From Clostridia bacterium (lineage in GTDB: Bacteria; Bacillota; Clostridia; Oscillospirales; Acutalibacteraceae), in NCBI GenBank assembly GCA_017502085.1, contig JAFVVQ010000062.1, forward strand, positions 33,433 through 97,432: a DNA stretch of 64,000 nucleotides. The letters are read 5' to 3'. Shown in pieces: positions 3,701 through 58,477 of the stretch (position 1 is its first letter; each line of letters begins with the position of its first letter). The notes beneath the pieces are model-generated. The model did not search any database. It saw only the letters and a list, made by a program, of their open reading frames with translations, and had not been told where the DNA came from. The position numbers and the translations under genes are program-made.

Positions 3701-4375
3701 TTATGCAACAGAGATGATTGAAAGAATCAGACCCGTAAGGATGGGCGAAAGGTCGAATGCGTTTGCGGGCACCTTGAAGAAATCGTCTGCAACGTCGAAG
3801 CTGATTTCGTCAAAATAGGTGTACTGAATTGAATGTGTGGATGAATCCTCAACCTTGAGCATAACAAGGTTGTCACCGTCGAAATAGAATTTGCTTGTCA
3901 CAAACTCTCTGTCGTTATATTCTTCAACAAAGTATTCCTTACCGTCAACGGTTTCGTTATAGCTGTCGATATACTGAATGAAGCCCTGAGTGAGGTTTGC
4001 GGCATCCTTGACGAGCTGCCAGATATCAGCGCCCTCAAGCGGATTGCGGTCAAGCTTTACGAAGAAGAAGGGGAGAGTCGGTACGAAAGCGTAGATGCCG
4101 TCTTCCGAAGCGATGACTCTGACCTTGAGAAAACCTGCGGTGTATTCATACGCGATGGAGTTGCCCTTGACCGCAACGGTGTTCTTGATGTCAGAGGGAA
4201 GGAATCCGAAAAGCATTGTGCTGCCTGAGTTGATGGTAACGAGTACCTCATCTTCGGTTTCGAGTCTGTCGAGAAGTGCGTCGGCTTTGGGCGTTTCGGC
4301 GGCAAATGCGCTTACGCAGAATACCGAAGTCATCATCACAACGGCTGCAAGAAGAATGCTTAAAAACTTTTTCAT
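3701..4375 (-). CDS. secreted protein of unknown function
   Basis: I do not recognise this 224-residue protein. It starts with a clear signal peptide (MKKFLSILLAAVVMM, cleavage near AFAAE), so it is exported. The mature part is predicted beta-rich (repeated short alternating stretches such as GKEYFVEEYNDREFVTSKFYF, positions about 145-165) and somewhat resembles outer-surface LolA/RseB-like folds that bind hydrophobic partners; that is speculative. It ends in a short hydrophobic tail (LTGLILSIISVA) with no basic residues after it. Start: ATG preceded by GGAGGA. It has its own promoter and the bidirectional terminator shared with spo0A, so it is a single-gene unit. Confidence 0.7.
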   Translation of the reverse strand: MKKFLSILLAAVVMMTSVFCVSAFAAETPKADALLDRLETEDEVLVTINSGSTMLFGFLPSDIKNTVAVKGNSIAYEYTAGFLKVRVIASEDGIYAFVPTLPFFFVKLDRNPLEGADIWQLVKDAANLTQGFIQYIDSYNETVDGKEYFVEEYNDREFVTSKFYFDGDNLVMLKVEDSSTHSIQYTYFDEISFDVADDFFKVPANAFDLSPILTGLILSIISVA

Positions 4376-4404
4376 AATGTAGTCCTCCGTTTTATTTTTT
4401 TTAC

Positions 4405-4433
4405 ATTATACCATATACATCAGTAAATTTCAA
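4405..4433 (-). promoter_or_regulatory. promoter of the secreted protein gene
   Basis: On the minus strand TTGAAA, 17-base spacer, TATAAT with a TG extension just upstream. The -35 box overlaps the last codons of hemW. Confidence 0.7.
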
Positions 4434-5532
4434 GGAGTGAGCAGATAACGGAATTAGAGAGCAGAAAGCCCTGTTTTGTGAGTGATATTTTTTCACTGTC
4501 GACAGTAACAAGACCGTGGTCCCTGAGAAATTTTGCTTTTTCAACAATACCGTCGGGTACGCTTTTGCCGAAGAGGGATTCGAATCTTGCAAAATTCAAG
4601 CCCTCCGTCAGGCGAAGTGCGAGCATAATGAATTCTTCTTCGTCGCCGCCTGCACCGTCGTCAATTGGCGGTGTTTCTGCTATGAAGTCGGCAATGCTGC
4701 GCTCATAATAAAACCTTTTTCCGTTTGCAAAGGAATGTGCCGCCGCACCGATACCGAGATATTCCTCGCATCGCCAGTATTTCAGATTGTGGCGGCTTTC
4801 GTATCCCTCTTTCGCAAAATTGGAAATCTCATACTGTATGAACCCCGATTCTTCGAGTGCTCTGGCAGCTTCAAGATAAAGCTCACCCGTTTCGTCATCG
4901 TCGGGTAGCGTCAGAGTATCTCTTTTTTTATGAAAGAATGTGCCTTCCTCGATTTTGAGAATGTATGCGCTCACGTGCGTTGCACCGCTTTTGCGACAGA
5001 ATTCAACGGATTCCAGCAGACTTTCTTTCGTCTGATTCGGGATTCCGAGCATCAGGTCAAGCGAAATATTCGTTATCCCGGCAGCTCTTGCTCTTGCAAT
5101 TGCTCTCTCAACGTCATCGCAACCGCCACGTCTGCCAAGGGCTTTTCGCTCGGTATCAACGGCGCTCTGCAGACCGAGAGAAATGCGGTTGACTCCGCTT
5201 TCTGCGACCTTCACAAAATCAAAAACGGAGTTGATTCCGCCTGTGTCGGATGGATTGCACTCGAGCGTGATTTCGCAGTTTTCGGTTGTCTGTACGTGTG
5301 AGAGTATGAGCGAAATATTATCTGCCCCGATCAGAGACGGAGTACCTCCGCCGAAATAAACGGTGTCATATATGCGGTTTTCTTCGTCGATTTTCTTGCA
5401 AAGAGCCGCAACGTAAGAATCCGTAACTCCCTTTTGGGGAGCTACGGAATAAAAATCGCAGTAAGGGCATTTGCCATTGCAGAACGGAATATGAAGATAG
5501 AGTCCGATGGGGTTTGAATTAATCATTGTCAT
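4420..5532 (-). CDS. hemW: HemW-type radical SAM protein
   Basis: A 370-residue radical SAM enzyme of the HemN/HemW family. The cluster-binding motif [10 protein letters not shown] (C18, C22, C25) follows LYLHIPF. GGGTPS and the LECNPSD segment are the SAM-binding strands, and the C-terminal HemN domain ends the protein. The CxxxCxYC spacing without the HemN N-terminal extension favours HemW, a heme chaperone, over coproporphyrinogen oxidase. The frame is open far upstream (to 5952), but that part is only a shadow of lepA. The start is ATG at 5532 or ATG at 5526, both overlapping the lepA stop, so translation is coupled; no strong ribosome site is visible. The lepA-hemW order is conserved in Firmicutes. 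Confidence 0.92.
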
Positions 5533-7333
5533 CAAGCTTGAGAACAGCCATAAATGCTTCCTGAGGAACTTCGACAGTACCGAAATGACGCATTCTCTTT
5601 TTGCCTTCCTTCTGCTTTTCAAGCAGCTTTTTCTTTCTTGTGATGTCGCCGCCGTAGCATTTTGCAAGAACGTCTTTGCGCATAGCCTTGACGGTTTCTC
5701 TTGCGATAACCTTGCCGCCGATAGCAACCTGAATCGGGATTTCAAACATCTGTCTCGGAATGTTATCCTTGAGCTTTTCGGCAATCTTCCTTGATTTGCT
5801 TCTTGCCTTGTCGTTGTGAATGATGAATGAAAGTGCGTCGATAAGATCGCCGTTGAGAAGAACGTCGAGCTTGACGAGATTCGAGCGGCGGTAATCGGAA
5901 ATTTCGTAGTCAAAGGAAGCGTAGCCTCGGGTTCTTGATTTGAGTGAATCAAAGAAATCGTAGATGATTTCGTTCAGCGGAAGCTCATAATGGATATCAA
6001 CTCGGTCAGGCGTGATGTAATCCATATTTTTGAAAATACCTCTGCGCTCCTGACAAAGATCCATAATCGCACCGACGTATTCGGCGGGGGAATAGATATG
6101 TGCATCGGTGAACGGTTCTTCGCAGTAATTGATGTGAGCGGGGTCGGGGTAATGGGTAGGGTTATCTATTTCGATCATCGTACCGTCGTTGAGATAGATT
6201 TTATAAATTACACTCGGGATGGTTGTTACAAGGTCGAGATCATATTCTCTTTCGAGTCTTTCCTGAATAATTTCAAGGTGGAGAAGACCGAGGAAGCCGC
6301 AGCGGAAACCGAAGCCAAGAGCGCCCGAAGTTTCGGGTTCATATGTCAGAGCCGCATCGTTTAGCTGAAGTTTTTCAAGCGCATCACGGAGATTTTCGTA
6401 GTCAGCACCGTCTGCGGGATAAACGCCGCAGAATACCATAGGATTGACCTTGCGGTAACCGGGGAGAGGCTCTTTTGCAGGATTTTCAACGATTGTAACC
6501 GTGTCACCGACTCTCGCATCGCCGACGGTTTTGATTGATGCGGTGATATAACCGACTTCGCCTGCTGTCAGTTCACTGCACGGCTCGGGTACGGTCGCAC
6601 GCATATAACCGGTTTCAACGATTGTGAATTCAGCGCCCGTTGCCATCATTCTCATTGTGTCACCGGGTTTTATTTTGCCTTCCTTAACTCTTACGTAAAC
6701 AATGACACCTTTGTAACTGTCATATACGGAGTCAAAAATCAGTGCTCGGGGAGGAAGATTATCGTTTGCCTCGGGAGAGGGAATATTCTTGACGATGCTT
6801 TCAAGCACCTGCTCGATGTTGATACCCGTCTTTGCCGAAACTCTCGGAGCTTCGGAGCAGTCAAGACCGATAACCTCTTCAACCTCTGCGGCAACTCTGT
6901 CAGGCTCTGCGGAGGGAAGGTCGATTTTGTTGATAACGGGAACAATTTCGAGGTTGTGGTCGAGCGCAAGATATGTGTTTGCGAGTGTCTGTGCCTCGAC
7001 ACCCTGAGATGCGTCGACGATAAGCACCGCACCTTCACAGGCTGCAAGTGAGCGCGATACCTCGTAGTTGAAGTCGACGTGACCGGGAGTGTCAATGAGG
7101 TTGAGGATATATTCCTCGCCGTCTTCTGCGAGATAGTTGAGCTTGACTGCGTGAGCCTTGATGGTGATGCCTCTTTCTCTTTCAAGGTCCATCTTGTCGA
7201 GAAGCTGAGCGGTCATTTCGCGCAATGCAACAGACTTTGTCTTTTCAAGAAGTCTGTCGGCGAGGGTTGATTTGCCGTGGTCAATATGTGCAATAATGCA
7301 AAAATTTCTGATTTTATCTTTTGAAACTGCCAA
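5519..7333 (-). CDS. lepA: elongation factor 4 (LepA)
   Basis: A 604-residue translational GTPase. G1 is AHIDHGKST (residues 15-23), followed by the G2 region RERGITI, G3 DTPGH and G4 NKID. The C-terminal LepA-specific domain is complete, ending KLDDND. EF4 acts on stalled or mis-translocated ribosomes. I chose the TTG at 7333: it gives [12 protein letters not shown], the normal LepA N-terminus, and has AGGAGA seven bases upstream; the longer open frame runs into the preceding transporter gene. The gene lies 17 bases after the GPH transporter and overlaps hemW. Confidence 0.96.
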
Positions 7334-41753: not shown

Positions 41754-41823
41754 GAAATATGTGAGAGTTTTTTTGGAATTCTGCGACTAAAGAGTGAAAG
41801 TGTTGACACGGAGGTTAAAACCT

Positions 41824-42369
41824 ATGGATAACGGTGAAAGTAGCTACCGCCGTTTTCTTGACGGTGACGGTGACGCCTTCGGCGAAATCGTCACAATCTA
41901 TAAAGATAATCTGATATTCTTCATCAACCGCTATGTGCATAACCTTGCGGTTGCAGAGGAGCTGGCACAGGATGTTTTTGTTGAAATTCTTCTTCATAAG
42001 AGAAGATACAATTTCAAAGCGTCGCTGAAGACTTATATCTTCACTATTGGCAGAAATCTTGCTGTCAGCTACGTCAGAAAATGTGCAAGAAAACCGGAAT
42101 GCGCTTATGAATTCATTGAAAATGAACAGGATGCGGTGCTGCTGGAGGATGAGTTTCTCAAAGAGGAAGAAAGACGCAGACTCCACGAGGCACTCGGTGC
42201 GATAGCGGATGATTATTCAACTGCGCTCCATCTTGTTTATTTTGAAGGGATGAGTAACGAGCAGGTCGGTAAGGTAATGAAAAAGAGTAAAAAGCAAGTG
42301 GAAAACATACTTTACAGAGCCAAAAAGGCATTAAAAAAAGAACTGGAGAAGGAGGCGGAGCTTAATTGA
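41824..42369 (+). CDS. ECF-type RNA polymerase sigma factor
   Basis: A 181-residue sigma-70 family protein with only regions 2 and 4. Region 2 (about 10-85) includes HNLAVAEELAQDVFVEILLH and LKTYIFTIGRNLAVSYVRK; region 4 (about 120-175) ends LVYFEGMSNEQVGKVMKKS and KKQVENILYRAKKAL. This is the extracytoplasmic-function class, usually held by a membrane anti-sigma factor. The ATG at 41824 has GGAGGT 9 bases upstream; an earlier GTG is not used. The stop overlaps the start of the next gene (TTGA). Confidence 0.92.
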   Translation: MDNGESSYRRFLDGDGDAFGEIVTIYKDNLIFFINRYVHNLAVAEELAQDVFVEILLHKRRYNFKASLKTYIFTIGRNLAVSYVRKCARKPECAYEFIENEQDAVLLEDEFLKEEERRRLHEALGAIADDYSTALHLVYFEGMSNEQVGKVMKKSKKQVENILYRAKKALKKELEKEAELN

Positions 42370-43112
42370 AGACCAATGAAGAATTTCTTGACGGAATTTA
42401 TGATAAACACAGCGCTCTGCTGAAAAAGCGAAAAAAGAGGATTTCCGCCATCGCAACAACAGTATGTGCAGCTGTCTGCATTGTTGTTGCCGTCGGAGCG
42501 TTCAACTCCGAAGAGCCGAATATTGTTATTGAACTCTATAACGATATCAGAAAATCAGGTGCGGCATTCACCCGTCCCGAGACCGACAGCATAGAAAAGC
42601 CGGCTGTTGAAAATGCAGAGGGTGAAGTTTCAACCTCTGCGCCTGAGGATGACGAACACCTGACCATGGCTGAGATTTATACCAAGCCGACAAAACTCTC
42701 GTCGGAAAACGCAAAGGATAACAAAACTCAGCAGGAGCAGTTTGCTGCAAAACCTGAGGTGCTGACCGTTGTTGCTGAAGACATATCGTCAGTTGACGGT
42801 GAAATGGGTTTCGCTCCCGAAATTCCTGATTCGGGTGGCGATTCAGTATCGGCAACACAGTCTTTACCTGCGAAGAAACCGATGTCCTCGACCGAAGAAA
42901 TAATTGAAGCGGCGTACGGTATTCTGTCCGAAGAGGACAGACAGAGTGTCATAAAAGACAATGCAGTGGCAACCGTTACGAGATATGCTGACGGTACGCA
43001 AATATATGAGGTTACTTTTACCGTGACAGAATCTCTTCAGAGTCCTGTTGCAGAACACATTACGGTTCAGATGGATCCGGAACTGAATGAGATACGTACG
43101 TTGCACTTTTAA
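42366..43112 (+). CDS. single-pass membrane protein, candidate anti-sigma factor
   Basis: A 248-residue protein overlapping the sigma factor gene by four bases (TTG start, with AAGGAGG 8 bases upstream). Residues 1-27 are cytoplasmic and highly charged (KHSALLKKRKKR); about 28-46 form one membrane helix (ISAIATTVCAAVCIVVAVGAF); the remaining about 200 residues are outside, acidic and Ser/Thr/Glu-rich, with a small C-terminal beta domain (YADGTQIYEVTFTVTE). Position argues for an anti-sigma role, but no zinc-binding ZAS motif is present and the cytoplasmic part is very short. I do not recognise a named family. Confidence 0.7.
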   Translation: MKTNEEFLDGIYDKHSALLKKRKKRISAIATTVCAAVCIVVAVGAFNSEEPNIVIELYNDIRKSGAAFTRPETDSIEKPAVENAEGEVSTSAPEDDEHLTMAEIYTKPTKLSSENAKDNKTQQEQFAAKPEVLTVVAEDISSVDGEMGFAPEIPDSGGDSVSATQSLPAKKPMSSTEEIIEAAYGILSEEDRQSVIKDNAVATVTRYADGTQIYEVTFTVTESLQSPVAEHITVQMDPELNEIRTLHF

Positions 43113-43125
43113 AGGAGTTGATTGA

Positions 43126-44439
43126 ATGAAAAAATTTGTTGCAGTTATCTGTTCTGTGTTTCTTTTACTGATTCTTGCTTCGTGCAACGGAGAAAAGATT
43201 ATAGACGATATCACAACCACCGTTGTCGATGCAACAAATGCAATCAACAAGGTTGTTGATACGTTTGAAAACGTTGTTCTCAGACCGCTTGGTAAGGAAG
43301 ATGACGAGGATTCCGTGAAGGGTCCGATGAACGAAAGAATCAGCAACAAAAATATAGCCGATGCAACTGCAGATTTCGGCTTTGAACTTTTCGGATATGC
43401 GCTTCAGTCGGATGGCAATGCGCTTATTTCGCCCGTTTCGGTTATGGCAGCACTTGCCATGACCGCAGACGGTGCCAACGGTCAGACTCTTGCCGAAATG
43501 GAAGCTGTTCTCGGCATGACAAACGAGAATCTGCGCAAGAATTACGGCAGTTACGTTCATCCCGCCAATTCGGATGAACAGCTTGAGTTTGCGAATTCTC
43601 TGTGGCTTCGCAACGACGGTGCTCTTCAGGTCAACAAGAATTTTGTTGACAGAACGGTTGAAGCCTACGGTGCCGACGTTTTCAGCGAGCCGTTCAATAG
43701 TTCGACCTGCAGAAAAATCAATTATTGGATAAGTGAAAATACCGACGGTGAAATCAGGAAAATGCTTTCCGAAATACCGTCGTCAACCGTCTCTTATATC
43801 ATCAACACCGTTCTTTTTGAAGCTGAATGGCAGAATCCTTACCGTGGAAATTCAGTCAGGAAAAATCAGGTTTTCACCAATGCAAACGGTGAAAAGCAGA
43901 AGGTGACGATGCTCGCTTCGGGTGAATACGGTCTTGTTGAACTCGGCAAGACCAAGGGCTTCATCAAGCGGTATGATGATTGCGATTATGCTTTTGTGGG
44001 ACTTCTGCCGAATGAAGGCGTGACCGTCGGCGAAGCACTTGCTTCTTTCAACGGTGAGAATTTTGTTGATGCGGTCAACAATCCGAAACCGATGAAGGTT
44101 GTTGTCAATATCCCGAAATTCAACCTTGAATGCAAATTCGAGCTTAACGATGCCCTCAGATCAATGGGTATGCCCACGGCGTTTTCGTCAGCCGCCGATT
44201 TCACGAATCTCGGGGTTTCGCCCTTCGGTAATATCTATATAGGGAAAGTTTATCATAATACTTTTATCCGTTTTGATGAAAAGGGAACAAAGGCGGGGGC
44301 GGCAACCGTTGTGCAGATGGATGCCGAAAGTGCGCCCGTTGAAATCGAATATCTGACCTTTGACAGACCGTTCATTTATGCTGTAATAGACACAGCGAGC
44401 GGTATGCCGATTTTTATCGGCGCGGTGCAGAACTTGTAA
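43126..44439 (+). CDS. lipoprotein serpin (serine protease inhibitor)
   Basis: A 437-residue exported lipoprotein: MKKFVAVICSVFLLLILASC with lipobox LASC. A linker of about 50 residues precedes a full serpin fold: NALISPVSVMAALAMTADGA is the conserved helix B region, and FIRFDEKGTKAGAATVVQM is the reactive-centre hinge (small residues after Thr, as in inhibitory serpins). DRPFIYAVIDTASGMPIFIG is the serpin C-terminal signature. Such proteins trap serine or cysteine proteases covalently. The inhibited enzyme and exact P1 residue (near QMDAES) are not certain. It is 13 bases after the membrane protein gene. Confidence 0.93.
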   Translation: MKKFVAVICSVFLLLILASCNGEKIIDDITTTVVDATNAINKVVDTFENVVLRPLGKEDDEDSVKGPMNERISNKNIADATADFGFELFGYALQSDGNALISPVSVMAALAMTADGANGQTLAEMEAVLGMTNENLRKNYGSYVHPANSDEQLEFANSLWLRNDGALQVNKNFVDRTVEAYGADVFSEPFNSSTCRKINYWISENTDGEIRKMLSEIPSSTVSYIINTVLFEAEWQNPYRGNSVRKNQVFTNANGEKQKVTMLASGEYGLVELGKTKGFIKRYDDCDYAFVGLLPNEGVTVGEALASFNGENFVDAVNNPKPMKVVVNIPKFNLECKFELNDALRSMGMPTAFSSAADFTNLGVSPFGNIYIGKVYHNTFIRFDEKGTKAGAATVVQMDAESAPVEIEYLTFDRPFIYAVIDTASGMPIFIGAVQNL

Positions 44440-44463
44440 ACCATCATCGGAAGGAGTTTTATT

Positions 44464-45396
44464 ATGGCAATTTTACAAAAAATTGTTTCCGCAATAATGG
44501 CACTTATTATGTCACTTTTCAGCTTCATTATTTCGCCTGTTGAGATTGACGTTCTTAACATCGCAGGAGAAGTTATATCATCGGGATCAGGTTCACGTCC
44601 GAGCGTGAATACACCTGTTATCTGCAGAAGCTATGGTGAATTTGAGTTGTTCTGCAAGTCGAGCAACAGTAAAGAGCTTGAGAGATATCTCTCGGAAATC
44701 AATCGTGATTTGTTTGATGATTACTGTGTTGTTGCAGTGAATTTTATGGTTCCCAACCCGTCCTATAAAGCTTATGTTACCTCTGCTGAATATGACGGAA
44801 AAACTCTCAGCCTTGATTATTTTCTTGCGGAATTCAGAAATATGGTTACCGCGTGTGTGATTTCATACAATACCCTCATTCTCGTCACGGATAAACATAT
44901 CAAAAAGGTTGAGTTGAACAAAGGTGAGACCGAAAAGATGGATTTCTTCCCGAGGGATTCGATGTTCGGTTGTCAGATAGGAACTATAAATCGGATTGAC
45001 CCCTGTTATGTTGATGAAAACGGGTGCTTTGAAGGGTGCTTCGTATTTGAAGATTATGATAGTTGGTTGAATTTCCTTGATAACGGCAAATGGGAAATCA
45101 GCAACAGTATTGAAATCGGAAAGAATTTCTTTGAAAATTCAAACCTTGCTGTGGCGATAACAACGCATTCAAGCGGCGGATACAGTCTTTATTTTTCCGA
45201 TTGTATTGAAGATGGCAACAATGCGGAAATCAAGCTTTTCTCGGCTTATGAGCCGGGCATTCACACAGATGCTGTATGGTATGAGGCGGCGTTTGTTGCT
45301 GTCGGCAAGGATATCAAAACCGCAGATGTGGAGATTGAATATATTGACCTTCCGTTCAGAGTTGATGGGGATTTATTTTTTGAGATTGTTTGCTGA
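44464..45396 (+). CDS. exported protein with PrcB-like domains
   Basis: A 310-residue protein whose leader (residues 1-28, hydrophobic, MALIMSLFSFIISP) has no standard cleavage site. Two similar segments follow, about 50-150 and 185-300. The second contains HSSGGYSLYFSDCIEDG and EPGIHTDAVWYEAAFVAV, the pattern of the PrcB C-terminal domain, which in spirochetes is part of a secreted protease complex. Family assignment rests on this weak pattern only. It lies 24 bases after the serpin gene, as last member of the sigma-factor operon, and a terminator follows. Confidence 0.62.
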   Translation: MAILQKIVSAIMALIMSLFSFIISPVEIDVLNIAGEVISSGSGSRPSVNTPVICRSYGEFELFCKSSNSKELERYLSEINRDLFDDYCVVAVNFMVPNPSYKAYVTSAEYDGKTLSLDYFLAEFRNMVTACVISYNTLILVTDKHIKKVELNKGETEKMDFFPRDSMFGCQIGTINRIDPCYVDENGCFEGCFVFEDYDSWLNFLDNGKWEISNSIEIGKNFFENSNLAVAITTHSSGGYSLYFSDCIEDGNNAEIKLFSAYEPGIHTDAVWYEAAFVAVGKDIKTADVEIEYIDLPFRVDGDLFFEIVC

Positions 45397-45401
45397 TATA
45401 T

Positions 45402-45435
45402 AAAAAGAGGATGCAACCTTCGGGCTGCATCCTCT
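45402..45435. terminator. bidirectional terminator
   Basis: AGAGGATGCA/TGCATCCTCT stem with a CC-TTCG-GG inner loop. AAAAA on the left gives a U tract for the minus-strand HAD gene. Confidence 0.8.
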
Positions 45436-55024: not shown

Positions 55025-56770
55025 ATGCCGATGCGAATTATTTCGTTTGTTCTGTCATTGATTATGTCTGTCTCAGGCGGTGCGGCAAGTTTTTTTGCCT
55101 CGGCAATTGACAGCGTAGCCGAAATTATCTGCGGTATTCCTTATACAGCGTCTGCGGTTAAGGATGAGTTGTTCAGCGAATTTGATGCTGATGACATCGG
55201 CTTTATTGATAACGAAAACGGATATATCAGAAACACTCTTGCGGTTTTTGTTGAACCCCGTCTCGGCTTTTTTGAGAGACTCGGAATTTTCAGAAACTGC
55301 GGCGGTGCGGTTATCGGCTGGTGTGCTCCCGCGGAGCTTTATATCATCAGAACTGCTGATATGTCGCACGAAGAAGCTCTTGAAAAGTGCCAAAGAATCG
55401 GAGAGACAGATGGTGTTGAACTTGCAATGCCCCTCTATCTGAGCAAAACGGCAGATCAGCTTACTCCCGATGATCCGTTTGACTATATGTTCGAGGAGGA
55501 TGCGTTCTATCCCGAAAATCCGGTCGTCTGGGATGAACTCGACCCCAACGGCAGAAACTGGTGGCTTGAAGCAATCAATGCAAGGCAGGCGTGGGATTAC
55601 GAGTCGTATTTTCAGCCCGTCAATATAGGTGTTCTTGACAGCGGTTTTGATCCCGAACATCCTGATCTTGAGGGTCAGATTACATTTCCGAACGAAAAAA
55701 GGGCGAGGAAAAACCGTCCATCCGACCACGGGTGCCACGTTTCAGGTATTATAGCAGCAAAACGGAATAATGCTACGGGTATTTCGGGTATATGCGACCA
55801 CGCTCAGCTTATCTGTGTAGACTGGAATCCCGATCTGTTTCAGTTCTGGTTTACCGAAATTGCAATTTATTTCGGCTTCACGGAGCTTGTTCAGGCGGGT
55901 GCAAAGGTAATCAATATGTCTTTTGGAATTGCTTCTTCGGTAAGCGGCGGTACGGCAAGTCTTTATGACAGAGTTCTGAAACCGATGGCGACCTCGCTCA
56001 CGATGGCTTCACTTCTTAGCAAGGGTTATGATTTTCTCGTTGTTCAGTCGGCAGGCAACGGCAACAGTATGGGCATACCGATTGATTCAACAAATAACGG
56101 TCATTTCGCCGCCGTAACAGAAAAAAATATTTATACGGGTAAGCACAAAATTGCAAAGGAAGAAATCCTCGGAAGAATTCTTACGGTGTCCGCCGCGTCT
56201 GACGGTTTTTCGGGTGAGTTCGAACTGGCATCGTACTCCAACGTCGGCAGATATGTCGGTATTGCAGCTCCGGGATCAATGGTTTTCAGTTGCGGATATC
56301 CTCTGATAAATGATTATGATTATAAATCGGGTACGTCGATGGCGGCGCCTTGTGTTACGGGTGTTGCGGGTCTCGTGTGGTCTGTCAATCCGTCATTTAC
56401 CGGCAGAGAGGTCAGAGAGATTATTGTGAATTCGACTGACAGAATGGCGAAAGTGAGTGAATTTGCGGAATATATTTATTGCGATGAAGTTGCGGATTAT
56501 CCGATGCTCAACGCAAAGCTTGCCGTTGAAGAAGCAATCAGAAGAACGGATTCAGCCGTCGGTACGGTCAGCGGAGCTGTCGGCGCGGAAGGTGCGGCAA
56601 CGATTGAATTCAGCGGCATAGCGCATACCGTTTTCAGTGACGGCAGTTTCTCTTTTGTAGCTCATGAAGGTGACGGAACAGCGGTTATCCGAAACGCATC
56701 GGGAGATGAAATCGGTTCGTTTGAACTGACCGTCATTGCAGGAGAAACGACAGATACAGGTATCGTCTGA
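55025..56770 (+). CDS. exported subtilisin-like serine protease (S8)
   Basis: A 581-residue protease. A hydrophobic leader (residues 1-26) lacks a clear cleavage site. A pro-region (about 40-150) precedes the S8 domain: NIGVLDSGFDPEHPD (Asp), DHGCHVSGIIAAK (His), QSAGNGNSMG (oxyanion Asn) and KSGTSMAAPCVTGVAG (Ser). The order Asp-His-Ser is as usual. After about 490 comes a small beta domain ending at 581. The leader and S8 fold put it outside the cell. It lies between EamA and a GH13 enzyme, with a spacing of 18 and 24 bases, so the three form one unit. Confidence 0.92.
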   Translation: MPMRIISFVLSLIMSVSGGAASFFASAIDSVAEIICGIPYTASAVKDELFSEFDADDIGFIDNENGYIRNTLAVFVEPRLGFFERLGIFRNCGGAVIGWCAPAELYIIRTADMSHEEALEKCQRIGETDGVELAMPLYLSKTADQLTPDDPFDYMFEEDAFYPENPVVWDELDPNGRNWWLEAINARQAWDYESYFQPVNIGVLDSGFDPEHPDLEGQITFPNEKRARKNRPSDHGCHVSGIIAAKRNNATGISGICDHAQLICVDWNPDLFQFWFTEIAIYFGFTELVQAGAKVINMSFGIASSVSGGTASLYDRVLKPMATSLTMASLLSKGYDFLVVQSAGNGNSMGIPIDSTNNGHFAAVTEKNIYTGKHKIAKEEILGRILTVSAASDGFSGEFELASYSNVGRYVGIAAPGSMVFSCGYPLINDYDYKSGTSMAAPCVTGVAGLVWSVNPSFTGREVREIIVNSTDRMAKVSEFAEYIYCDEVADYPMLNAKLAVEEAIRRTDSAVGTVSGAVGAEGAATIEFSGIAHTVFSDGSFSFVAHEGDGTAVIRNASGDEIGSFELTVIAGETTDTGIV

Positions 56771-56794
56771 TTTATATATGAAAGGAAGAAAGTT

Positions 56795-58477
56795 ATGGCA
56801 GAAATCAAAAAGCATTGGTATAAGGAAATGGCGGTTTATCAGGTGTGGCCGAGAAGCTTCCGTGACGGTAACGGCGACGGAATCGGTGACATCAAGGGCG
56901 TTATGGAAAAACTCGATTATATCAAAAGTATCGGTGTTGATGCGATCTGGTTTTCGCCTCTTTATAAATCTCCCCAGCATGATTACGGCTACGATATAGC
57001 TGATTATAAATCAATCGCGCCCGAATACGGTACGGTTGAAGAGTTCAAAGAACTGCTTGATGCAGCTCACAGCAAGGGACTCAAAATTATTATGGACCTT
57101 GTCATCAACCATACCTCTGATGAACATGAATGGTTTATTGAAAGCAAAAAAGGTAAGGATAACCCTTATCACGATTATTATTTCTGGCGTTCAGGCAAAA
57201 AGCCGAACGGAAAAAAGCCTCCCAACAACTGGCTTTCGACCTTTGCAGGTCCGGGCTGGCACTATAACGAGAATCTCGATGAATGGTATCTCACTCTTTT
57301 TGCAAAAGAGCAGCCCGACCTCAATATGGATAACCCCAAGGTGCGTGAAGAAATCAAGGATATCATACGCTTCTGGCTTGACATGGGAGTAGATGGCTTC
57401 CGTGAGGATGTTATCACCTTCATTTCAAAGAAAGACGGTCTGCCCAACGGATTCCCGATTCCCGTTGCCTGCGGTATGGAGCATTATAAATGCGGACCCA
57501 GACTTGACGAGTATCTTGCGGAATTCAGAAAAGTTACCGATGATTACGACTGTATGACCGTCGGTGAAGCCCCGATGATGACTCCGAAGCTTGCACTCCG
57601 ATTCATTAAGGAGGGTCCCGGTCAGACGCTCAATATGATGTTCAATTTCCAGCATATGGAGGCAGACAGCTTTATGGTCAGCTGGGTGCCTATGCCTTTC
57701 AGTCTCAAAAAGCTCAAAAATGCATATAACAGATGGCAGAAGAAACTTTACGGTATTGCCTGGAATGCAAACTATATTGAGAATCACGATCAGCCCAGAG
57801 TCATCAACCGCTACGGCGATCTGAATTACAGAGTTGAAAGCGGCAAGATGCTTGCAACGATGTATATCTGTCAGAGCGGTACACCCTTTATTTATCAGGG
57901 TCAGGAAATCGGCATGACCAACATTCATTTTGATTCTGTTGATGATTATACCGACACTCAGGTTAAAAGCACCTATCAGCTTTTCAAAAAGCTCGGTTTT
58001 TCGGATAAGATGTTCCTTAAGGTTGCCAACCGTGCATCCCGAGATAATTCGAGAACTCCCGTTCAGTGGAGTGCGGAGAAAAATGCAGGTTTCACAACTG
58101 CCGATAAGCCTTGGTTTACCGTTAACCCCAACTATACTGAAATCAACGTTGAGGCCGCTGAAAAGGATGAAAACTCGATTCTCAATTATTACCGTAAGCT
58201 CCTTAAATTCCGTAAGGAAAACGAAATATGTATCTACGGTGATTTTAAACTGCATTATAAAAACAGCCGAAATCTTTTCGTTTACGAAAGAAATTATGAG
58301 GGAAAGAGAATGCTTGTTATCAATTCTTTCACTGATAAGCCTGTCAACTTCACCGCGCCCGCGGGATTTGAACTCAGCAAAGGTAAACTGATGCTTTCAA
58401 ACTACGAGGTTACAGATAACTCTCTTAATAGCTTCGTCACAAATCCATACGAAACAAGAGTGTATTTGTTCGGATAA
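56795..58477 (+). CDS. GH13 alpha-glucosidase (oligo-1,6-glucosidase type)
   Basis: A 560-residue intracellular enzyme. YQVWPRSFRDGNGDGIGDIKG is the GH13 opening; GVDGFREDVI carries the nucleophile Asp; TVGEAPMM the acid/base Glu; NHDQPRVINRYG the third Asp. The QPDLNMDNPKVREEI segment is typical of the oligo-1,6-glucosidase/trehalose-6-phosphate hydrolase branch. It would split isomalto- or malto-oligosaccharides. ATG follows GAAAGGAAG. A strong terminator follows. Confidence 0.93.
   Translation: MAEIKKHWYKEMAVYQVWPRSFRDGNGDGIGDIKGVMEKLDYIKSIGVDAIWFSPLYKSPQHDYGYDIADYKSIAPEYGTVEEFKELLDAAHSKGLKIIMDLVINHTSDEHEWFIESKKGKDNPYHDYYFWRSGKKPNGKKPPNNWLSTFAGPGWHYNENLDEWYLTLFAKEQPDLNMDNPKVREEIKDIIRFWLDMGVDGFREDVITFISKKDGLPNGFPIPVACGMEHYKCGPRLDEYLAEFRKVTDDYDCMTVGEAPMMTPKLALRFIKEGPGQTLNMMFNFQHMEADSFMVSWVPMPFSLKKLKNAYNRWQKKLYGIAWNANYIENHDQPRVINRYGDLNYRVESGKMLATMYICQSGTPFIYQGQEIGMTNIHFDSVDDYTDTQVKSTYQLFKKLGFSDKMFLKVANRASRDNSRTPVQWSAEKNAGFTTADKPWFTVNPNYTEINVEAAEKDENSILNYYRKLLKFRKENEICIYGDFKLHYKNSRNLFVYERNYEGKRMLVINSFTDKPVNFTAPAGFELSKGKLMLSNYEVTDNSLNSFVTNPYETRVYLFG

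Follow-up and report, generated by a model that had tools for sequence, protein, structure and literature searches.

The serpin operon and its sigma factor

We have analyzed a stretch of 64,000 nucleotides, called here the window, from the draft genome of a Clostridia bacterium of the Acutalibacteraceae (order Oscillospirales; assembly GCA_017502085.1, 2.63 Mb in 66 contigs; contig JAFVVQ010000062.1, positions 33,433 to 97,432). Between positions 41824 and 45396, four genes of the forward strand code for a sigma factor of the extracytoplasmic function (ECF) type, a membrane partner, a lipoprotein serpin and an exported protein with PrcB-like repeats. The first two genes overlap by 4 bases and are followed by gaps of 13 and 24 bases, a close packing that was taken for an operon in an earlier sequence-only reading of the window; the grouping of sigma factor, partner and serpin is kept across genomes of the same genus. 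We have found the linkage of ECF genes and serpins at many other loci, including eight at which the serpin itself appears to be fused to the membrane partner.

The product of the first gene (41824-42369, 181 aa) is a short protein with sigma-70 regions 2 and 4, detected above the Pfam cut-offs (Sigma70_r2, 2e-10; Sigma70_r4_2, 1.2e-8) and by TIGR02937 (91 bits over a cut-off of 42.9). It matches ECF models above cut-off both in Pfam and among the best 25 of 97 NCBIfam matches, so that the ECF assignment made before stands. By a signature of our own naming, it is of the type MDNGxSSYRRFLDGD. An ECF-type promoter, TGAGNGTTTT-N12-CGAMTAA, lies on the same strand at 41762-41790, with no mismatches and 33 nt upstream of the ATG, and recurs upstream of the sigma genes of the genus in DNA that is otherwise dissimilar. 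Among the serpin operons of the genus, 13 in all, eleven carry an exact copy, G011 has one mismatch and G035 has no copy at up to two mismatches (genomes of the genus are given by G numbers, loci by L numbers). The distance to the start codon is 31-40 nt where measured, and in G024 the exact copy is found some 320 nt before the start. Because the genus sequences served both to derive the pattern and to count it, only the whole-genome count tests it independently: there are five sites at up to one mismatch in the genome of the window, the sole exact one being that of the operon, and none for the reversed pattern used as control. This distribution indicates that the operon is probably autoregulated and the regulon small, in keeping with the control by its own sigma factor that had been proposed.

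Two of the one-mismatch sites precede paralogous ECF genes on contig 26 of the same genome, where two ECF sigma/membrane partner pairs with different outside parts are found in tandem (L249, 4281-7575). Two other one-mismatch copies (L331, ~1501, and L334, ~1501, in C25 and C62) precede a gene for an exported-looking protein and a flavoprotein-like gene, and in G015 (L232, 3702-5270) a similar flavoprotein gene adjoins a run of sigma, partner and lipoprotein genes. Stand-alone PrcB-like genes were also considered as members of the regulon and discarded, the promoter being absent at up to two mismatches from the nine loci inspected.

The membrane partner

The second gene (42366-43112, forward strand, TTG start) codes for 248 aa. 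About 27 residues (42366-42446), presumably cytoplasmic, are followed by one hydrophobic helix from residue 28; the single-pass topology with a short inner part was thus confirmed, by eye and from the N-terminal hydrophobicity window alone. In the alignment with relatives of the genus, the outer part is variable over a long stretch and has a small C-terminal domain, and 64% of residues 50-170 are D/E/S/T/P/N/Q/G/K. No Pfam or NCBIfam family matches the protein above cut-off, the sequence search against solved structures gave no hits, and an NCBIfam scan of six relatives' proteins returned only sub-cut-off matches. A profile of the N-terminal segment built solely from 15 ECF partners never seen beside serpins, however, placed it seventh among 2231 sequences, with an E value of 2.8e-9. 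The 70 best other hits of this profile include 55 that start directly downstream of an ECF gene. Since the segment is common to ECF partners that have no serpin, and gene position and helix are also as with other ECF factors, the second protein is very probably an anti-sigma factor.

The serpin

The third gene (43126-44439, forward strand) codes for a serpin of 437 aa (PF00079, 1.4e-74), with a lipobox, LASC (43174-43185), and a P15-P8 hinge of inhibitory type, GTKAGAAT (44284-44307), all of which supports its earlier description as a lipoprotein serpin. Counting from the hinge, the scissile bond would be Glu-Ser. The closest solved relative is tengpin (PDB 2pee, 2.1e-84), and the closest named relatives that we found come from Clostridia metagenome-assembled genomes of goat gut and water deer gut. 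Strong diversification of the reactive loop was examined and rejected, the effect being modest: across 66 pairs of 12 genus serpins the mean identity was 0.34 in the loop, compared with 0.52 in the core and 0.88 in the hinge, and 38 of the 344 windows compared were less conserved than the loop.

Linkage of serpins and ECF genes

The serpin is present in 13 of 45 genomes of the genus, that of the window included, many of the 45 being incomplete. In all 13 the sigma factor and the membrane partner head the gene run of the serpin, which follows them directly or is separated from them by a gene of the fourth family alone. The latter belongs to the operon in seven of the 13 genomes. It is located 3' of the serpin in the window and between partner and serpin in G002, G011, G024, G028, G039 and G041, so that the adjacency of the four families, expected in relatives by the sequence-only reading, is found in six other genomes of the genus, all in the order sigma-partner-PrcB-like-serpin. 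The copies in G024 and G039 are one-repeat versions.

The sigma gene was searched in 28 genomes of the genus, and four of them (G001, G015, G020 and G022) had sigma and partner genes and no serpin hit. The third gene of G015 codes for a lipoprotein with weak repeats of the fourth family, as scored with a profile that already included this protein; G001 has a close homologue, and the sigma factors of both are 51% identical to that of the window. In G022 and G020 the product of the third gene is a lipoprotein that matches BsuPI below threshold (19.5 bits in G022, the cut-off being 22.9; 14.1 bits, E 0.047, in G020). At L230 (4844-5818) and L231 (5011-5985) the place of the serpin behind sigma and partner is taken by a lipoprotein whose match to this proteinase inhibitor family is below threshold. 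In G014 the sigma and partner genes lie at a contig end and the run is cut off after the partner.

Serpins (PF00079) were detected in 181 of 394 genomes of the order. Our survey covered 169 non-redundant serpin loci, hand-picked and not random, that had 1.5 kb or more of upstream sequence; 17 of 186 non-redundant loci were dropped for having less, and open reading frames (ORFs) shorter than 330 aa and loci with identical cores were dropped as well. Relatives were chosen by similarity to the window serpin. The 80 stretches of the order were hand-picked from the best-scoring rows listed, many rows (two of them at contig ends) being skipped, and the contig searches used an alignment that already contained ECF-linked and fused serpins. 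The ECF profile was built from the sigma genes of the surveyed loci and leans to their types, the same profile being applied upstream and downstream. With these limits, a same-strand ECF gene was found within 1.3 kb upstream at 51 of the 169 loci, whereas only one of 173 loci with room had one downstream and one of 186 had one on the opposite strand. By source, the upstream gene was present at the window locus (1/1), in 11/23 relatives, in 26/85 loci of the order sample and in 13/60 from searches of genome contigs. In the order sample alone the contrast was 26/85 upstream vs 1/85 downstream. The sigma-serpin linkage thus recurs across genomes.

The gap between sigma and serpin genes in the 44 unfused cases was 445-1243 bp (median 725), the size of one gene. 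Among the 53 unfused cases within 2.2 kb, 49 had an intervening ORF whose N-terminal part includes a hydrophobic helix; our script saw no intervening ORF in L061, L122, L183 and L192, and other readings show one in all but L183. On the serpin tree, the distribution of ECF linkage needs 30 changes, compared with a mean of 49 after shuffling (lowest of 200 shuffles, 41). Tandem serpins behind one ECF gene were seen at L053 (10528-13524), L179 (2039-4597) and L310 (4255-6769), and those of L179 and L310 share one partner each.

Apparent fusions of the serpin to the membrane partner

We have found eight loci (L081, L123, L140, L151, L159, L169, L197 and L167) where no separate partner stands between sigma factor and serpin. 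In all but L167, sigma gene and serpin ORF overlap or touch (-19 to +1 bases), and the latter opens with some 29-56 residues followed by a hydrophobic helix. With the serpin directly behind the sigma gene and a cytoplasmic-type segment and helix at its N-terminus, anti-sigma factor and serpin look like one protein at the eight loci. The L167 fusion (4010-6490, 779 aa) has a stalk rich in Ser/Thr/Glu/Pro and C-terminal parts of no recognised type; its ORF was called too long, and it was counted as "none" in the linkage, motif and tree counts. L081, with a sigma ORF of only 98 aa as read, is a weaker case. For most of the fusions the anti-sigma role is deduced from gene position, helix and N-terminal segment.

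The seven labelled fusions need five changes on the one FastTree tree computed, and the sigma factors beside them are of the types MDNGxSSYRRF, DEKIIELYF and a third that is SigW-like, so that two or three ECF types are involved. The inhibitory-type hinge is kept in all eight (seven by pattern, L167 by eye), and an AxA-Q stretch was seen by eye after the helix of L081, L123 and L151. A motif resembling NLMxGI precedes the serpin body in six of the seven labelled fusions, in 28 of 53 other ECF-linked serpins and in 45 of 109 unlinked ones, and is missing from the window serpin. We take it, tentatively, to be the equivalent of the N-terminal tail of tengpin, which, docked on the body of that serpin, stabilises its native state (PMC8233489; this and the other publications used here are represented by excerpts, to which our statements about them are confined).

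The PrcB-like protein and the surroundings of the operon

The fourth gene (44464-45396, forward strand) codes for an exported protein of 310 aa with two tandem domains of about 100 aa (aa 53-152 and 194-289), which match each other with a profile-profile probability of 99.0. Neither Pfam nor NCBIfam matched the protein at E<=1, and the best hit of the sequence search against solved structures (0.058) was not usable. A profile pooled from 39 repeats of 19 proteins was compared with one of PrcB_C for which 15 proteins had been taken from other classes of the phylum; the match reached 91.6 (E 8.1e-7), the values for two unrelated control comparisons being at most 0.3, and the single domains gave 45.8 and 1.5 without pooling. 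The domains thus appear remotely PrcB_C-like, and the PrcB-like label given to the protein before seems reasonable at this distance, although the PF14343 model itself does not match it and had no hit at E<=0.01 in 60 genomes, its own among them. Proteins with five PrcB_C-like repeats were seen at L075 (6678-8651) and L077 (7118-9037). The tree places the window copy beside a G032 copy that stands alone (100/100) and, less firmly (86/90), among further stand-alone copies instead of the operon copies of other species, a pattern that may reflect repeated entry of the family into the operon.

Upstream of the operon there are a Major Facilitator Superfamily (MFS) transporter gene and a gene for a large protein without Pfam match, and downstream a convergent haloacid dehalogenase (HAD) gene. 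The interval before the latter holds a hairpin (45406-45435, -21.3 kcal/mol, z -3.92). As its T run is on the reverse strand, that of the HAD gene, it would at best be a terminator shared by both. Three proteins were compared with PADLOC, and none matched at E<=0.01. Farther away (55025-58477), the window contains a gene for an S8 subtilase followed by an alpha-amylase-like gene, a pair that is adjacent in the window and in 22 of 22 relatives.

Discussion

Our preferred interpretation, to which we assign a probability of about 0.55, is that this is an autoregulated operon of an ECF sigma factor and a membrane anti-sigma factor that would make surface protease inhibitors when proteases attack the cell from outside. 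At rest, the inner end of some 27 residues of the second protein would hold the sigma factor, as judged from its homology with other ECF partners, while its outer part would be an extended stalk, probably flexible, that ends in a small domain. If a protease attacked this stalk or a serpin coupled to it, the site of a first cut would be exposed, after which a site-2 protease would release the sigma factor, by analogy with RsiV. Transcription of the operon by its own sigma factor, from the TGAG...CGAMTAA promoter, would then supply the surface with more lipoprotein serpin, a suicide trap, and more PrcB-like protein. In the eight relatives with fusions, the outer portion of the receptor would be the trap.

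The fusions suggest a role of the serpin in sensing. A bolder form of the idea, which we put forward tentatively and with somewhat less than even confidence, makes the serpin the receptor: cleavage of the reactive loop by a protease and the irreversible snap into the relaxed form would let go the N-terminal tail between serpin and membrane helix, much as the tail of tengpin holds the native state; the site-1 cut would come next, and the released sigma factor would provide for a new receptor-trap. Each fusion molecule would then count and kill one protease, and in the window these roles would be divided between two proteins, the lipoprotein serpin and the anti-sigma factor.

Several observations weigh against the preferred interpretation. 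At 109 of the 169 loci surveyed (one of them the later recognised fusion L167) there is no ECF gene within 2.2 kb upstream, so serpins do not need the ECF system. The N-terminal partner profile is borderline for two of the fusions (L140, 0.011; L151, 0.014) and not significant for the others scored (L123, 0.23; L197, 5.1; L081, 8.7; L169, 74), L159 being unmatched. The outer parts of ECF partners vary widely between the loci compared, as if they were sensing different things. This last point also favors the strongest rival, by which the ECF factor senses some other envelope or nutritional cue, the serpin and the PrcB-like protein are its response and the fusions are a mere way of anchoring to the membrane. 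The same genome has two paralogous ECF/partner pairs with one-mismatch promoters and no adjacent serpin, and the serpin of Bifidobacterium longum is described under sugar control and not under that of protease. However, anchoring is already provided to the unfused serpins by their lipobox, and the serpin was fused to the partner of the regulator repeatedly (the five changes on one tree) with the hinge kept in 8/8. We consider this rival less probable than the preferred interpretation, yet a serious one.

The AxA-Q stretches that follow the helix in three fusions are what would be expected if a cut just outside the membrane freed the sigma factor and released the serpin at the same time, and in RsiV the site-1 enzyme is signal peptidase. 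Such shedding would fit only the fusions, the window serpin being a separate lipoprotein, and no AxA-Q was noticed in the other five, which had no systematic search. It appears improbable to us. Even less probable is that the inhibitors restrain the extracellular subtilase of the cell itself, encoded at 55 kb, to which the sequence-only reading had pointed as a possible source of proteolytic damage. It is true that Treponema PrcB interacts with a subtilisin-family protease, that in G032 and G006 PrcB-like genes are near the orthologous subtilase-amylase pair, and that a review describes cellulosomal serpins as inhibitors of subtilisin-like proteases. However, the subtilase is present in 40 of the 45 genus genomes and the serpin in 13, and a PrcB-like gene is near the subtilase in only 2 of 22 relatives (some with short flanks). 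The special link was given up on these numbers, and with it the own subtilase as a general target. That the four genes are chance neighbours without functional connection we practically dismiss in view of 51/169 upstream vs 1/173 downstream and of the fusions, with nothing weightier in its favor than the several ECF-like genes that a genome contains (10 matches in this one).

Parts of this logic are known from other systems. Like the SigV/RsiV pair of Bacillus subtilis, the operon combines an ECF sigma factor with a probable membrane anti-sigma factor whose outside part would meet the attacking enzyme. Until lysozyme binds, amphipathic helices of RsiV shield a signal-peptidase site that follows the membrane helix (PMC6066255), and the AxA-Q of three fusions falls at that position. 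Unlike in RsiV, the outside part is here a serpin or an unmatched domain and the suggested ligand a protease. Neither DUF4179 nor DUF3298, of the RsiV family, matches the window partner, which places it outside that family, and among ten relatives' proteins DUF4179 gave only sub-cut-off values (L151, 0.11; L133, 0.12; L310, 0.032), other known regulator domains being likewise absent above cut-off. The polysaccharide-sensing RsgI proteins of Clostridium thermocellum carry outside carbohydrate-binding (CBM) and glycoside hydrolase (GH) modules that detect the targets of the regulated genes (PMC3413522, PMC12484212, PMC3990059). An anti-sigma factor with a sensing outside module follows the same logic as the anti-sigma-serpin fusion, but the sigma factor here is of ECF type and RsgI_N was not reported at E<=1 in the window partner, which sets the pair apart from SigI/RsgI.

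Protease-responsive control by neighboring regulators, proposed here, has been shown for the serpin of Bifidobacterium breve, which is raised by papain via an adjacent two-component system (PMC8012564). In our case the regulators are an ECF sigma factor and its probable anti-sigma factor, to which the serpin seems to be fused at some loci, and no histidine kinase was found among the seven window proteins scanned. Tengpin and the siropins (group T serpins) include the closest solved relative of the window serpin; the window serpin lacks the NLMxGI-like motif, and no regulatory fusion is described for them in the excerpts of PMC8233489 and PMC5127057. The PrcB of Treponema denticola, which interacts with the subtilisin-family protease PrtP of the dentilisin complex (PMC8167434), resembles the fourth protein in the remote match of the pooled repeat and in being exported; the latter has two repeats, no lipobox by eye and no match to PF14343, and the operon lacks a gene for a protease. 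No description of an operon or fusion that joins ECF factor and serpin was met in the open PMC literature as excerpted (PMC10059941 included), and the suggestion that the gene set was new holds within this scope.

Gut bacteria live among host and microbial proteases, and the B. breve two-component system is the sole account that we met, in the excerpts used, of sensing extracellular proteolysis and answering with an inhibitor. If our interpretation is right, a suicide inhibitor as partner, and perhaps as receptor, would be a new type of input for ECF signalling, it would explain the control of serpins in part of the gut Clostridia and it could offer a possible protease biosensor. This gut bacterium keeps its serpin in one operon with a stress regulator, and the seeming fusion of the serpin to part of that regulator in several relatives suggests that a single-use trap for proteases may serve them as protease sensor.

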